This document shows positions 32,243 through 43,826 of a stretch of DNA of 64,000 bases, one piece after another. The stretch lies in the NCBI GenBank assembly GCA_039962225.1, contig JAMPKV010000005.1, positions 124,001-188,000 of the forward strand, in the 5' to 3' direction. The translations under genes and the position numbers were made by a program. How positions within the stretch are numbered: position 1 is the first letter of the stretch; each line of letters begins with the position of its first letter. This stretch comes from Microcoleus sp. AS-A8 (GTDB lineage Bacteria > Cyanobacteriota > Cyanobacteriia > Cyanobacteriales > Coleofasciculaceae). Below the pieces are notes generated by a model. That model did no database searches. It saw nothing but the letters and a program-made list of their open reading frames with translations, and was not told where the DNA came from.

Positions 32243-32293
32243 TATGAGCTAGCTCAAGGACTTCATCAAACACTTCAAGGAATATAAGGGTAG
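32243..32293 (+). promoter_or_regulatory. Promoter of the methyltransferase-cupin operon with TATGAGCTAGCTCA site
   Basis: TATGAGCTAGCTCA (32243-32256), containing the perfect palindrome TGAGCTAGCTCA, lies exactly 27 bases before ATAAGGGTAG (32284-32293); tATAAG (32283-32288) is a likely -10 box. The site centre is then about 41-44 bases before the transcript start, the position of class II CRP/FNR activator sites. TATGA-N6-TCA matches the CRP-family half-site spacing. The same layout occurs at 34298-34348 before the oxidase gene. Confidence 0.75.
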
Positions 32294-32316
32294 AGACGAT
32301 TCAGGAGGTCGCACCA

Positions 32317-33093
32317 ATGACCAACGCTACCCTTAACTTCAAAACAGCACCCGCTCATCAAGTTTTAGCAGCGGCTGGTAAGAAGATTTTACGACCCGGT
32401 GGACGTGCTGCTACAGAACAGTTGTTTGAGTGGGCGAATTTCCAACCTGGAGAAACAGTACTGGAGCTAGCTTCCAGTTTTGGTTACAGTGCGATCGCAT
32501 TGGCAAAACGGTTTGGCGTCCGTGTGGTTGGCGTTGAAAAAAATCTCGATAGTGTGGCACGCGCACGAGACAATATCCGTGCGGCTGGGGTAGAAGGACA
32601 GGTAAACATCATCGAAGGCGATATCTTTCACCTGGAAACGATTCCCGGACAGTTTGACTATGTATTTGCAGAAGCCATTCTGTCCATGCAATCTCCTGTG
32701 GGTAAAGCCAAAATTTTGCAGGGTATTCATCACAAACTCAAACCAGGGGGTAAGTTTCTTTCTCATGAATTGTTCATTCGCAACCATGAGCAAGAAGTTC
32801 ATCGCACGCTGTCTCAGGTTATTCGGATGAATGTCACGCCTCTCTCGCTAGAGAACTGGAGTAAAACCTGTGAAACGGCTGGACTAAATGTGCAGCAGCA
32901 TCAAACTGGAGCGATGGGATTATTGAATCCTGTGCAAATGCTGCGGGATGAAGGTGTTGTTGATACGGCTCGAATTGTATGGAATGTACTGACGAAAGCG
33001 CCTATTCGCGATCGCGTTCTACAAATGCGTCACGTCTTCAAGCACCATCAACAAGACTTGGGTTATATCTCGCTGTGCGCGATTGCTGATTAA
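32317..33093 (+). CDS. SAM-dependent methyltransferase
   Basis: 258 residues, with ribosome binding site AGGAGGT (32303-32309). SAM motif I is VLELASSFGYSAIALAKRFG near 48-67, followed by VVGVEKNLDSVARAR near 70-84 and a motif near 112-120 (FDYVFAEAI). A PGGKFLSHELFI segment follows near 143. The target is unknown. It is the first gene of a run with a cupin and an unknown protein, ending at a terminator, and shares its promoter design with the alternative oxidase operon. A link to respiration or nitric oxide response is inference from this shared promoter. Confidence 0.82.
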   Translation: MTNATLNFKTAPAHQVLAAAGKKILRPGGRAATEQLFEWANFQPGETVLELASSFGYSAIALAKRFGVRVVGVEKNLDSVARARDNIRAAGVEGQVNIIEGDIFHLETIPGQFDYVFAEAILSMQSPVGKAKILQGIHHKLKPGGKFLSHELFIRNHEQEVHRTLSQVIRMNVTPLSLENWSKTCETAGLNVQQHQTGAMGLLNPVQMLRDEGVVDTARIVWNVLTKAPIRDRVLQMRHVFKHHQQDLGYISLCAIAD

Positions 33094-33181
33094 CAGTAAT
33101 GCATGGAACTCACAGTTTTATATCTTGTTAATCACCACAAACAAGATTTTGTCACATCTACCTTAAAGAGGTATATTCATC

Positions 33182-33517
33182 ATGACTTCTACAAGTCAAG
33201 CCAATTCATCTTGTTATTTTCCACTCCAGGAACGAATTGAATATCCGGCAGATGGAGTGCTGAGTAAAGTTTTATTCAAGGACAAAAATTGCCAATACAC
33301 TCTGTTTTGTTTAGCCGCTGACACGAGTATTTCTGAACACACCTCAACTCGTAATGCTGTTATCAACGTCATCGAAGGCCGGGGAACTCTGACTCTAGAA
33401 GGACAAGAGATTCCACTAGAACCGGGTCTTTTCGTTGTCATGAAAGCTCACGCCCCTCATGCTTTAAAAGCTGAGCAAAACTTAGCCTTTCTCCTAACGC
33501 TATCTGAAAGCCACTAA
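33182..33517 (+). CDS. Small cupin-domain protein
   Basis: 111 residues forming a single cupin barrel. Motif 1-like HTSTRNAVINVIEGRGTLTL near 51-70 and motif 2-like PLEPGLFVVMKAHAPHALKA near 78-97 are visible; metal-ligand histidines are fewer than in classical cupins (His51, His92, His95). Ribosome binding site AAAGAGG is about 12 bases upstream. An inverted repeat (ATCTTGTT / AACAAGAT, about 33123-33148) lies in the 88-base gap after the methyltransferase gene. Role unknown; cupins of this size often bind a metal and act as sensors or small enzymes. Confidence 0.8.
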   Translation: MTSTSQANSSCYFPLQERIEYPADGVLSKVLFKDKNCQYTLFCLAADTSISEHTSTRNAVINVIEGRGTLTLEGQEIPLEPGLFVVMKAHAPHALKAEQNLAFLLTLSESH

Positions 33518-33564
33518 CAAACTTCACAACGTTAAGTCAATCTCATCAATTTAGGTTCCTGTCA

Positions 33565-34050
33565 ATGCTGTACATTTTTTTTCAACACCTTGGACTATCC
33601 ACCGCTGAGTTAGAAACGTTATTATCACTCAGTTTGCAGGAGTCTCTGACCTTACCTGCCGTGCAGGAATTATTAGGGAGTTTAGACACCCAACTCCTGC
33701 AAGCAACCTTACCGACAGCAGGAAGTGTTTTGGCTGAACGATTACCTCCTTTTTATGACTGGCTGAAAAATGAGTTAGGCGTCAAGCGAGTTCCTGATAG
33801 CCCAGACCATACAACAAAGTGGGTGATTGGTTTTCTCCACCATAAAGAAAGCTTGACTCGCTTAGTTGAACTGCATCGCCGCGTACCTCGTCCCGCTTTA
33901 GAACGATCAATTCCTCGCTTAGTCGCAGCGTTTGATGGGGTTGAACAGGAGAAGGTACGGAAGGAATGGCAAAAAGCGATCGCAGCCCTTTGCCTAGTCC
34001 TCGTTGTTGCAGCTCGCGCTGAAGAGCGGTCTCTCCAAGCGGTAATGTAA
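33565..34050 (+). CDS. Unknown helical protein in the cupin operon
   Basis: 161 residues, not recognised. It appears all-helical: Leu-rich helices in residues 5-55, a loop containing LGVKRVPDSPDHTTKW (70-85), then basic helices (HHKESLTRLVELHRR near 91-105) and a C-terminal hydrophobic helix (about 138-152, IAALCLVLVVAARAE). One His pair (His91-His92) could bind metal, but no known site is evident. It ends 25 bases before a strong terminator, closing the operon that starts at 32317. Confidence 0.65.
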   Translation: MLYIFFQHLGLSTAELETLLSLSLQESLTLPAVQELLGSLDTQLLQATLPTAGSVLAERLPPFYDWLKNELGVKRVPDSPDHTTKWVIGFLHHKESLTRLVELHRRVPRPALERSIPRLVAAFDGVEQEKVRKEWQKAIAALCLVLVVAARAEERSLQAVM

Positions 34051-34075
34051 AACTATCAAGACTGACAACTTTGCC

Positions 34076-34102
34076 AACCCCCAAATTGTTTTGGGGGTTT
34101 TT
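34076..34102 (+). terminator. Rho-independent terminator of the methyltransferase-cupin operon
   Basis: AACCCCCAAA (34076-34085) pairs with TTTGGGGGTT (34090-34099) over 10 bp with a 4-nt loop and is followed by more T. It sits 25 bases past the stop of the unknown 161-residue protein and separates this operon from the oxidase operon. Confidence 0.88.
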
Positions 34103-34297
34103 GTACTTATAACTACAAACGGAGTTAACAGTAGTCCTTTCTTCAGATAGAAGTGGCAGTCTAATAGAAATAGTTATTTTGTTAATAAAGTGCTATTTTA
34201 TCGATTGGCTTGGCTTGCAAGCTGTTTGCGCCAGTCTGTTTTAGCACGAATTACTCGCAGTAGTGCTTGTGCCATCGCTCTCCTGTCTCAATCTAAG

Positions 34298-34348
34298 TAT
34301 GAGCTAGCTCATAGCAGGAATTAAGACTATTTTTCAAAATAAGGGTAG
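34298..34348 (+). promoter_or_regulatory. Promoter of the alternative oxidase operon with TATGAGCTAGCTCATA site
   Basis: TATGAGCTAGCTCATA (34298-34313) is a perfect 16-bp palindrome. ATAAGGGTAG (34339-34348) follows with exactly the same 27-base distance from the shared TCA as at 32243-32293; aATAAG is the likely -10 box. The rest of the spacer differs between the two promoters, so conservation is restricted to operator and -10 region, as expected for a true regulatory site. Confidence 0.75.
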
Positions 34349-34376: not shown

Positions 34377-35222
34377 ATGACTACTTGCAACATGGCACCA
34401 CGACAAGAGAAGCTTGCCAAAATCTACCTGAAAGCAAATCCTGTCGAAATTTCTCAAGAGACAGAGGAGAACCTAGAAATGATTCGACTGCTTGTAAACT
34501 TTTTAGTGTTAATTTTGAATATTTTTTATCACGATCGCATTTATCCCCGGTTCTTTGTTCTAGAAACCGTAGCGCGGGTTCCCTACTTTGCTTATACTTC
34601 AGTTCTTCATCTCTATGAAACAATGGGTTGGTGGCGTAAAGCTGACTGGATAAGGATTCACTTTGCCGAAGCTTGGAACGAGCTACACCACTTGCTGATT
34701 AGTGAGGAAATGGGTGGTAATCAATTCTGGATTGACCGCTTTGTTGCTCGTACCGGAGCCTTTGTCTACTACTGGATTATTGTGTTGGTGTACATGGTCG
34801 CACCACGCTCTGCTTATCGCTTCATGCAACTGGTCGAAGAACATGCCTACCATACCTATGACACCTATCTTCAAGAGCATGGGGATGAACTGAAAACGCA
34901 ACCAGCACCACAAGTCGCCATTCAATATTACTGCTGCGGCGACCTCTATCTGTTTGATGAATTCCAGACGAGCCGCCCACCAGAGGAGCGTCGTCCGAAG
35001 ATTGATAACCTCTATGATGTGTTTGTTGCCATCCGCGATGATGAAATGGAACATGTTAAAACAATGATTGCTTGCCAAAGAAACGATGCTCAATCGACCT
35101 TCAAGAGTCCTCACAGCCCTGATCGTGTAGCTCTGTCTGAAAGCACTAAAGTGGCAATTGAGGCCCATACCGATGACTTCAAGCAAGAGGCTGTTGAGCA
35201 AGAGCTAGTAAAAATGCCGTAA
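34377..35222 (+). CDS. Alternative (plastid-terminal-type) oxidase
   Basis: 281 residues. A di-iron plastoquinol oxidase that reduces oxygen to water at the membrane without pumping protons, and is insensitive to cyanide and NO in the family. The ligand motifs are complete: LETVARVPYF (Glu63), NELHHLL (Glu102, His105), VEEHAYHTYD (Glu154) and RDDEMEHVKTM (Glu223, His226). Hydrophobic stretches near 36-50 and 127-141 fit monotopic membrane attachment. EEHAYHTYD and the long loop before the last motif resemble PTOX more than mitochondrial AOX. It is followed after 11-29 bases by a YwiC-like gene. Confidence 0.95.
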   Translation: MTTCNMAPRQEKLAKIYLKANPVEISQETEENLEMIRLLVNFLVLILNIFYHDRIYPRFFVLETVARVPYFAYTSVLHLYETMGWWRKADWIRIHFAEAWNELHHLLISEEMGGNQFWIDRFVARTGAFVYYWIIVLVYMVAPRSAYRFMQLVEEHAYHTYDTYLQEHGDELKTQPAPQVAIQYYCCGDLYLFDEFQTSRPPEERRPKIDNLYDVFVAIRDDEMEHVKTMIACQRNDAQSTFKSPHSPDRVALSESTKVAIEAHTDDFKQEAVEQELVKMP

Positions 35223-35251
35223 CCCTGGAAATAGTGGAGAATGTTGAGACA

Positions 35252-36100
35252 ATGACTCAGCCAGCCATCAATGCAGTAACCGAAAATCTTTCATCTGCTA
35301 GAAGTCTTACTCAACCCAAATCTCTGGCGTGGTATAGACCGACCCTTTCTCACGAACATGGGGTTTATGTAGTGTTGTTGGTATCTTTCCTGACTGGAGC
35401 CGCATTAGCGCAAGCTTGGAAACTGGCAACTACATTGGCTTTGGTGTGTGCGTTCTTTGGCTTTCAGGCTGAGCATCCCATTGTCGTTCAAATCAAGCAA
35501 CGGCGGAGTCTCAAGCCTCGTTTTTTAGTGTGGGGTGGCTTGTACTCGGCTGTGTCACTTGCGATCGCATTTTGGCTCTATCTCAGTTTCCCGATACTTT
35601 TGTGGCTCTACTTAGGAGCAGTTACAGCACTGGTTGTCGATGCGGTTTCCGTTCTCCACCGCGAACAAAAATCCATTTTCAATGAGTTCATTACCTTTGC
35701 AGCGGTTTGCCTTTGCGCTCCTCTCGCCTACGCGGCTACCACTGGCACCATTTCAGCTACGGCAATGGGGTTGTGGGTACTCAACACGCTCTACTTTTCC
35801 AGCACCATTTTTACCGTCAAGTTGCGTAAGCCGAAAAGGAGTTCCATCGTTCCGGGAGTGGTTTATCATGCGATCGCAATTTTCATTATTACCCCTCTCT
35901 ATTACTTTGGTTGGCTACCTTTAATCGCGGCTTTGGCATTTGGATTAGCGCTGCTTAAATTTGGCCTTATTGCCTGGAATCAGGAGTGGTATCGCACTGC
36001 AAAAATTCAATGGGTAGCGATGCTCGAAACGGGAACGGCTTTCTGTTTCCTCACCCTTGTTGCTCTTTCAATTCTGCCAGCTCACTTAACCACATTTTAG
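35252..36100 (+). CDS. YwiC-like membrane protein
   Basis: 282 residues from ATG 35252; a GTG at 35234 would add six. About eight to nine hydrophobic segments. The LSHEHGVYVVLLVSFLTGA start near 29-47 matches the YwiC family, whose hallmark is an early HG motif. YwiC is named from Bacillus, where it lies beside the nar/fnr anaerobic nitrate respiration genes; its reaction is unknown. Here it is directly downstream of the alternative oxidase, almost certainly in one operon. This pairing supports a role in quinol-based respiration under low oxygen or nitrogen-oxide stress (inference). Confidence 0.78.
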   Translation: MTQPAINAVTENLSSARSLTQPKSLAWYRPTLSHEHGVYVVLLVSFLTGAALAQAWKLATTLALVCAFFGFQAEHPIVVQIKQRRSLKPRFLVWGGLYSAVSLAIAFWLYLSFPILLWLYLGAVTALVVDAVSVLHREQKSIFNEFITFAAVCLCAPLAYAATTGTISATAMGLWVLNTLYFSSTIFTVKLRKPKRSSIVPGVVYHAIAIFIITPLYYFGWLPLIAALAFGLALLKFGLIAWNQEWYRTAKIQWVAMLETGTAFCFLTLVALSILPAHLTTF

Positions 36101-43121: not shown

Positions 43122-43826
43122 TCACAAAGAACTGTCACTACCAGAGGCAATGGCGGCTAAAGCTTCTGAGTCTAACACCATAATCTTACCCCCACGACTG
43201 TACGTGACAACTGACTGAATCGTCTTAAATAACCGCACGCACTCTTCATAGGTAATCCCGATACTGCGGGCAATTTGATAGTAGGAAAGTTTGATGTTCA
43301 AGCGCTGACCCTCAGGAGTGATTTCGGTTCCAGAGTGAGAAGCAAAATACTGAATGAACTGTGCCAATCGCACGATCGCTCGCTCGGAGACTAATCCATG
43401 AACAGTATCATGCAGCAGTTGGAGTCGCTGATTGAATACACTCAACATTCGCAAAGCGATCTCAGGCGTTTGGCGAATAGCCTCTACTAAGCCATCACGT
43501 TCAATCGTGAGAATGTGGCAATTTGTCTCGGCGGTGACAGCGGCGGGAGCGATACCATTGCCAAAAATAGCGGGTGCTGCAAAAATTTCTCCAGCGAATA
43601 AGGTGCGGAGAATGGTTTCCTTGCCAGTGGGCGCTGTCTTCGTGACACGCAAAGAACCCTGGAGCAGACTGTACAGTTTTGAGGAAAGGCGATCGCCTTC
43701 TTGCATGAGGATTTCCCCTCGCTGGTATTGCTGAACTTGGCTAAAGGGTTGTAATCGTTCTAACTCTGAAGGTTCTAAATCCCGAAAAACCAGAATTTGA
43801 GAGAGTTCCTCGACGGTTGCTTGCAA
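43122..43826 (-). CDS. Crp/Fnr family transcriptional regulator
   Basis: 234 residues from a TTG start at 43826 (no ATG nearby; the length fits the family). An N-terminal cNMP-type beta barrel (about 10-125) has the frame GEIFAAPAIFG but lacks the Arg of the cAMP-binding cassette, so cAMP binding is doubtful. C-terminal HTH (about 150-225): YYQIARSIGITYEECVRLFK. Glu and Arg are spaced as E181 and R185 of E. coli CRP (in YEECVR), the residues that read TGA in a TGA-N6-TCA site. It has no Fnr-type cysteine cluster. It could in principle read the TATGAGCTAGCTCATA sites at 32243 and 34298, but this is unproven. Confidence 0.88.
   Translation of the reverse strand: MQATVEELSQILVFRDLEPSELERLQPFSQVQQYQRGEILMQEGDRLSSKLYSLLQGSLRVTKTAPTGKETILRTLFAGEIFAAPAIFGNGIAPAAVTAETNCHILTIERDGLVEAIRQTPEIALRMLSVFNQRLQLLHDTVHGLVSERAIVRLAQFIQYFASHSGTEITPEGQRLNIKLSYYQIARSIGITYEECVRLFKTIQSVVTYSRGGKIMVLDSEALAAIASGSDSSL

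Follow-up and report, generated by a model that had tools for sequence, protein, structure and literature searches.

A conserved Crp/Fnr-type operator in cyanobacteria, its candidate regulator and a probable role in nitric oxide defence

In cyanobacteria, the class II promoters of NtcA carry a GTA-N8-TAC palindrome centred at -41.5, upstream of a -10 element of the form TAN3T. Regarding nitric oxide (NO), HcpR sites were predicted in 2005 for norB of Synechocystis and hcp of A. variabilis, and according to the sections of the same study dealing with NO, known NO regulons repeatedly contain RIC (dnrN), NO reductase and globin-type NO dioxygenase (Rodionov et al., 2005; PMC1274295). Its section on operator recognition states that R180 of the regulator correlates with G3 of the operator, and E181 with A6. 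Here we describe a further operator, for which we consider it likely that a conserved cyanobacterial Crp/Fnr activator acts in class II position at an extended -10 to control a regulon of nitric oxide and nitrosative stress defence. In the open-licence literature searched, no report of this regulator/operator pair was found, and the letters of the operator matched unrelated papers only. The outcome is a candidate regulator with its operator, the geometry of the promoters and a list of genes extending across many genera, which gives a context to some cyanobacterial alternative oxidase (AOX) and YwiC genes and probably links a methyltransferase-cupin pair, so far uncharacterised, to NO stress.

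The window, i.e., the whole 64-kb stretch of DNA analysed, contains two operons of interest, methyltransferase - cupin - U161 and AOX - YwiC (Table 1). A sequence scan located TATGAGCTAGCTCA at 32243-32256 and 34298-34311 and, exactly 27 bases past each copy, ATAAGGGTAG at 32284-32293 and 34339-34348, the spacers being unlike each other at the two promoters. The coordinates thus confirm the identical TATGAGCTAGCTCA-N27-ATAAGGGTAG arrangement reported in the preliminary description of this DNA, as well as the perfect 16-bp palindrome announced before the oxidase (TATGAGCTAGCTCATA, 34298-34313); before the methyltransferase, the operator reads TATGAGCTAGCTCAAG. Exact TGAGCTAGCTCA occurs in the window just at the two operon promoters, and the exact core palindrome has 3 copies in the 7.75-Mb genome, the two window operators included. 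The third copy sits within a response-regulator gene and was rejected as a regulon member, which leaves the two operons as the only places of this genome with the exact operator upstream of genes. The degenerate pattern TGAGnTAnCTCA is hardly enriched there (12 places, the reversed control having 9) and a quinol-type NO reductase (qNOR) was not found in a search run without positive control; for these two reasons, the regulon of this genome may consist of these two operons alone.

Table 1. Positions of the operon genes, promoter elements and candidate regulator gene in the window.
Feature	Position	Strand	Remark
Operator 1, TATGAGCTAGCTCAAG	32243..32258	+	centre about -41.5
-10 GAATAT (32280-32285) and conserved stretch to predicted start (~32292), contains ATAAGGGTAG	32280..32293	+	start predicted
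SAM-dependent methyltransferase (MT)	32317..33093	+	most frequent gene behind the site
Cupin protein (CUP)	33182..33517	+	
U161, 161-aa protein without Pfam match	33565..34050	+	
Terminator-like stem-loop after operon 1	34076..34099	+	weak alone: region has 5, shuffles expect 4.8
Operator 2, TATGAGCTAGCTCATA, perfect palindrome	34298..34313	+	
-10 CAAAAT (34335-34340) and conserved stretch to predicted start (~34347)	34335..34348	+	start predicted
Alternative oxidase (AOX)	34377..35222	+	residues ~6-33 resemble the N-terminus of SMALL
YwiC-like protein	35234..36100	+	
Crp/Fnr-family regulator (REG), candidate activator of both operons	43122..43826	-	

The candidate regulator was reached through 36 loci of AOX orthologues, which led to a cluster of Chlorogloea CCALA 695 (L024) with the order SMALL - AOX - PNPOx - methyltransferase - cupin - U161 - YwiC, two sites and a Crp/Fnr gene at its end. 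The window encodes an orthologue of this Crp/Fnr protein (66% identical), hereafter REG, only ~9 kb from the two operons, and the dedicated Crp/Fnr-type regulon proposed earlier is supported. Another of these loci, from Microcoleus vaginatus WJT46 (L026), combines sites with a qNOR. In Nodosilinea LEGE 07298 (L048), methyltransferase, REG, YwiC, qNOR and AOX genes stand together, with sites before YwiC and qNOR; since L048 and L172 (G323) have an identical stretch in common, they probably represent the same genome. Sites at 2 mismatches or fewer were held by L024, L026 and L048 only among these 36 protein-chosen loci, L033 and L056 having 3-mismatch sites far off. Because so few AOX loci have sites, AOX orthologues were given up as an entry and the regulator was used instead.

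REG contains a cNMP-binding fold (PF00027, 1.1e-18) and a Crp-type HTH (PF13545, 1.4e-07), which places it in the Crp/Fnr superfamily. Among 71 aligned sequences with a length of at least 215 aa, H139 is present in all 71 and H143 in 70, and the recognition helix (I/V)(T/S)YEE-x2-R is found in 70, the remaining sequence being gapped there. By hand alignment to the E. coli CRP sequence, H139 and H143 presumably correspond to S128 and G132, in the dimer helix that flanks the site of cAMP binding, and the DNA-contact trio R180-E181-R185 to Tyr-Glu-Arg. REG is thus set apart from CRP by the Tyr at the 180 position, on the same assumed alignment, and by a half-site TATGA instead of TGTGA-N6-TCACA. 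Following the correlation given in the recognition section of PMC1274295, a TATGA half-site devoid of G3 but retaining A6 is what is expected from a regulator with Tyr for Arg180 and Glu181 kept. A conserved Fnr-type cysteine cluster for [4Fe-4S] is absent from the 71 sequences, the commonest cysteine before residue 150 occurring in 25 of them. The operator itself is of the family's type, a 16-bp palindrome with a TnnGA-like half-site and conserved TATGA-N6-TCATA. It is predicted to be bound by REG, whose gene in the window probably controls it; that REG would hold a haem or a metal is a guess suggested by the histidines.

The site and the regulator keep company in cyanobacteria. In a class sample of 388 cyanobacterial genomes, with the site defined as the 16-mer at 1 mismatch or fewer and the regulator as a match with E up to 1e-25, the site was found in 68 genomes, the regulator in 75 and both in 53 (Fisher p = 9e-34, uncorrected for kinship and genome size). 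The reversed control pattern occurred in 20 genomes, 7 of them with the regulator (p=0.07), and counting by genus gave the site in 45 of 160 and the regulator in 49 of 160. No regulator was detected in 15 of the 68 site genomes; several sites in such genomes lie away from labelled genes and look like chance occurrences. One of the 75 regulator genomes is G104 (7.4e-26, 30% identity); the same gene is an HcpR-like hit (9.4e-51), the genome has no site, and the protein is probably not REG.

Regulator loci were then delimited by taking at most 7 kb of sequence from either flank of the regulator gene. The clean set comprises 64 loci chosen by the regulator protein; kept out of it were about 10 partial or later-noticed regulator matches, L147 and L160 (their stretch having been widened to include the site) and L257-L260 (three of the four already known to hold sites). 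These 64 loci contain 55 sites, distributed over 44 loci, whereas 60 palindromes shuffled at constant composition gave 1.2 sites on average and never more than 4. As many as 49 sites have a labelled gene starting no more than 250 bp downstream, 4 precede other ORFs only and 2 precede none. At 20 loci no site lies in the stretch covered, the recognition helix being nonetheless unchanged. Two broader tallies are consistent with this (59 sites in 68 loci; 62 sites in 70 loci), with the locus choice or length partly influenced by the site.

Promoter anatomy was deduced from an alignment of 88 promoters derived from 85 sites, at loci chosen by regulator and site together and with the direction toward REG excluded. 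Information peaks at TATGAG(C/G)TA(G/C)CTCATA(GA) and, at a fixed distance, at TTTGnCAnAnT followed by a purine-rich stretch. CAnAnT stands at offset 21, i.e., 22 bases past the 16-mer, in 65 of the 88 promoters, and no other offset has it in more than 6; the count is 40 of 49 when only the 64 regulator-chosen loci are taken, and 0 of 18 for the promoters read toward the regulator gene. The layout is that of an extended -10, with TG at -15/-14, C at -12 (90%), A at -11 and T at -7, the -10 signal itself being read from the site-bearing promoters. Counted from the predicted start, the palindrome centre is at -41.5 and at a constant distance from the -10, which is the class II Crp-type arrangement and agrees with the CRP/FNR-type site at an activator position put forward in the preliminary description. 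The same alignment corrects its assignment of ATAAGGGTAG as the -10, this element falling at about -8 to +2. In the window, CAAAAT before AOX fits CAnAnT and GAATAT before the methyltransferase does not; in the sister genome G001, the -10 before the methyltransferase is CAATAT. The C at -12 is unusual for a -10. Variants of sigma-70 region 2.4 can read C at this position, and no sigma-factor gene beside the regulator was seen by eye among the 32 most recurrent families listed.

Within the 64 loci, the site precedes 26 of 32 methyltransferase genes, 7 of 7 globin (GLB), 2 of 2 RIC, 5 of 8 SMALL and, in 15 of 64 cases, the regulator gene, followed by cupin (3/29), YwiC (3/19), qNOR (1/5), AOX (1/7), PNPOx (1/2) and U161 (0/7), as compared with 10 of 735 other ORFs. 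The globin and RIC rates are partly circular, because the two labels derive from genes that were initially encountered behind sites. Cupin, U161, YwiC and AOX genes are frequently downstream of a site-bearing first gene, and AOX is a direct target for 3 of 43 AOX ORFs of mixed sources. Among the regulon members suggested earlier, AOX itself is an occasional direct target only. The motif, whose absence from relatives would have spoken against a regulon, also precedes the methyltransferase gene of G001, a genome from the same genus, as it does at the loci counted above. An intradiol dioxygenase gene (PF00775) with a site 78 bp upstream was also observed (L218, 7001; G244).

The AOX promoter of the window has a history of its own. 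Residues 6-33 of AOX (MAPRQEKLAKIYLKANPVEISQETEENL; window 34392-34475) match the N-terminus of SMALL, with alignment scores of 95 for the L147 protein and 81 for that of L024, the best of 200 shuffles reaching 33 and 39, respectively; 12 of 13 SMALL ORFs score above their own shuffles, the exception being L148. SMALL stands between the site and AOX in L024 and is often the first gene behind the site. These alignments suggest that a deletion joined AOX in frame to the promoter and start of SMALL, and AOX would thereby have taken over a regulated promoter. SMALL is a family of ~155 aa without Pfam match and with HDYDHY-like and EI-x-AY motifs (L024 5355-5810; L147 13188-13655); it could be a metal-binding helical protein. 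In G001, the methyltransferase operon retains the site, and a 79-bp 3' relic of AOX, 85% identical, lies between U161 and YwiC (L271 13815-13893); as this short relic is all that is left there, AOX has probably been lost from that genome.

A second regulator is associated with an overlapping set of genes. In other cyanobacteria, an HcpR-like regulator is encoded beside qNOR, RIC or YwiC, with the operator TTGACTTAAGTCAA. It was followed in 33 loci (the best 30 of 63 genomes, mostly as 3.7-kb stretches, plus L044, L045 and L054), of which 25 hold a TTGAC-type site and none TGAGnTAnCTCA, the TTGAC-type site being in agreement with the HcpR sites predicted in 2005. Neighbours comprise qNOR (14), RIC (8), YwiC (3), AOX (3) and cupin (1), the AOX count being biased because L044, L045 and L054 were all fetched by AOX; L045 has qNOR-AOX-RIC-YwiC in a row. 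At the 25 HcpR-like sites, several of them near-copies, the -10 at the same distance is TAnnnT in 25 of 25 and CAnAnT in none. REG and HcpR-like proteins form separate clades with support of 100/99 (26 REG sequences, i.e., every third one plus three, and 6 HcpR-like). Overlapping defence genes are thus placed under two different regulators. Mutual exclusion between the two was considered and dropped, 16 of the 63 HcpR-like genomes (4 of the 34 strongest) also having REG, which is about the overall rate. The genome of the window itself encodes, outside the window, an HcpR/Dnr-like regulator (G000:C5:310529-311191) 52% identical to that of L054.

Site-bearing genes in relatives include qNOR, RIC/YtfE/ScdA (PF04405 and PF01814) and single-domain globins (PF00042), i.e., the NO reductase, iron-centre repair and globin targets that characterise an NO-response regulon. 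Together with AOX, they indicate nitric oxide, and the nitrogen-oxide response proposed from the window alone gains support from them as well as from the independent HcpR/Dnr-like regulator beside overlapping genes; the earlier interpretation was largely correct. For the genome of the window, the NO reading rests on relatives, since qNOR was not found and the exact site is confined to the two operons. Its globin was rejected as a target: the gene is a fusion-like ORF of 231 aa with no TGAG-N4-CTCA over the 400 bases that lead up to its start. This ORF (L270 1198-1893) joins an HTH-like N-terminus to a globin-like domain.

The computed evidence covers the site, the constancy of its spacing, how it co-occurs with the regulator gene and lies next to it, and the genes behind it; from this, we infer how the system may operate. 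A REG dimer would bind TATGAG-nTAn-CTCATA centred at -41.5 and, as in class II activation, touch RNA polymerase at the extended -10 TTTGnCAnAnT. The regulon would comprise NO reductase, YtfE/RIC for iron-centre repair, globin, the NO-tolerant AOX, YwiC and the methyltransferase-cupin pair, with NO as the signal, perhaps perceived through a haem or metal on the two conserved histidines. It is conceivable, although on balance doubtful, that REG represents a separate class of cyanobacterial NO sensor-activators, with a haem- or metal-containing Crp/Fnr protein operating through H139/H143 on -12C promoters, and a gene set shared or swapped with HcpR/Dnr. If so, a particular sigma factor, or an opening step that depends on the activator, would be required for the -12C.

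Other explanations have to be weighed. The same regulon and regulator could respond to low oxygen, redox state or cyanide, with qNOR, RIC and globin being anticipatory, which would suit an AOX known to tolerate cyanide; in addition, norB of Synechocystis rises in far-red light, when cells are low in oxygen, according to the part of PMC10830646 concerned with this gene. We regard this as rather unlikely, REG being without a conserved Fnr-like cysteine cluster and RIC, NO reductase and globin-type NO dioxygenase being the recurrent members of NO regulons in the section of PMC1274295 cited above. Repression by REG, or mere autoregulation, would account for the sites upstream of the regulator gene itself, most of which are shared with a divergent target; the exact -41.5 spacing to the -10, in the absence of any further conserved -35 element, is what a promoter dependent on an activator looks like and makes this reading highly improbable.

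The sites could also be bound by another Crp/Fnr protein, i.e., the HcpR-like one encoded in the same genome (G000:C5:310529), NtcA or CRP. Very little probability can be given to this, considering the TTGAC-type sites of the HcpR-like loci, the well-supported separation of the two clades and an operator with neither GTA-N8-TAC nor TGTGA-N6-TCACA. As for coincidence, or a recently duplicated promoter devoid of common control, two copies 2 kb apart might have evoked it; the element is found before orthologous and before unrelated genes of many genera, the spacers having diverged, and this explanation, already refuted, has a negligible chance of being right. An NO-responsive activator regulon is the preferred reading.

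Compared with known systems, the closest are the cyanobacterial HcpR/Dnr regulators (Synechocystis slr0449 with norB; Anabaena variabilis with hcp), which, as described in the HcpR section of PMC1274295, share with REG the Crp/Fnr family and the link to NO reductase. They differ from it by the operator TTGAC-N4-GTCAA, a Pro at the Arg180 position, a separate clade and a TAnnnT -10; judging from its site and norB link, the HcpR-like L054 type, which also stands next to RIC or YwiC, is presumably the orthologue of slr0449. DNR and NnrR of denitrifying proteobacteria are, like REG, of Crp/Fnr type and without Fe-S cysteines, and are activators of NO responses in the corresponding section of PMC1274295. 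The DNR of known structure is distant from REG by sequence (7.6e-08), and the gene set of REG adds AOX and the methyltransferase-cupin pair. The targets of NsrR and NorR overlap those of REG (ytfE/dnrN, globin-type NO dioxygenase and NO reductase, as far as covered in PMC1274295), whereas the proteins and operators belong to unrelated families. Finally, NtcA promoters have the -41.5 position in common with those described here, and combine GTA-N8-TAC with TAN3T where the present ones combine TATGAG-N4-CTCATA with CAnAnT and an extended TG.
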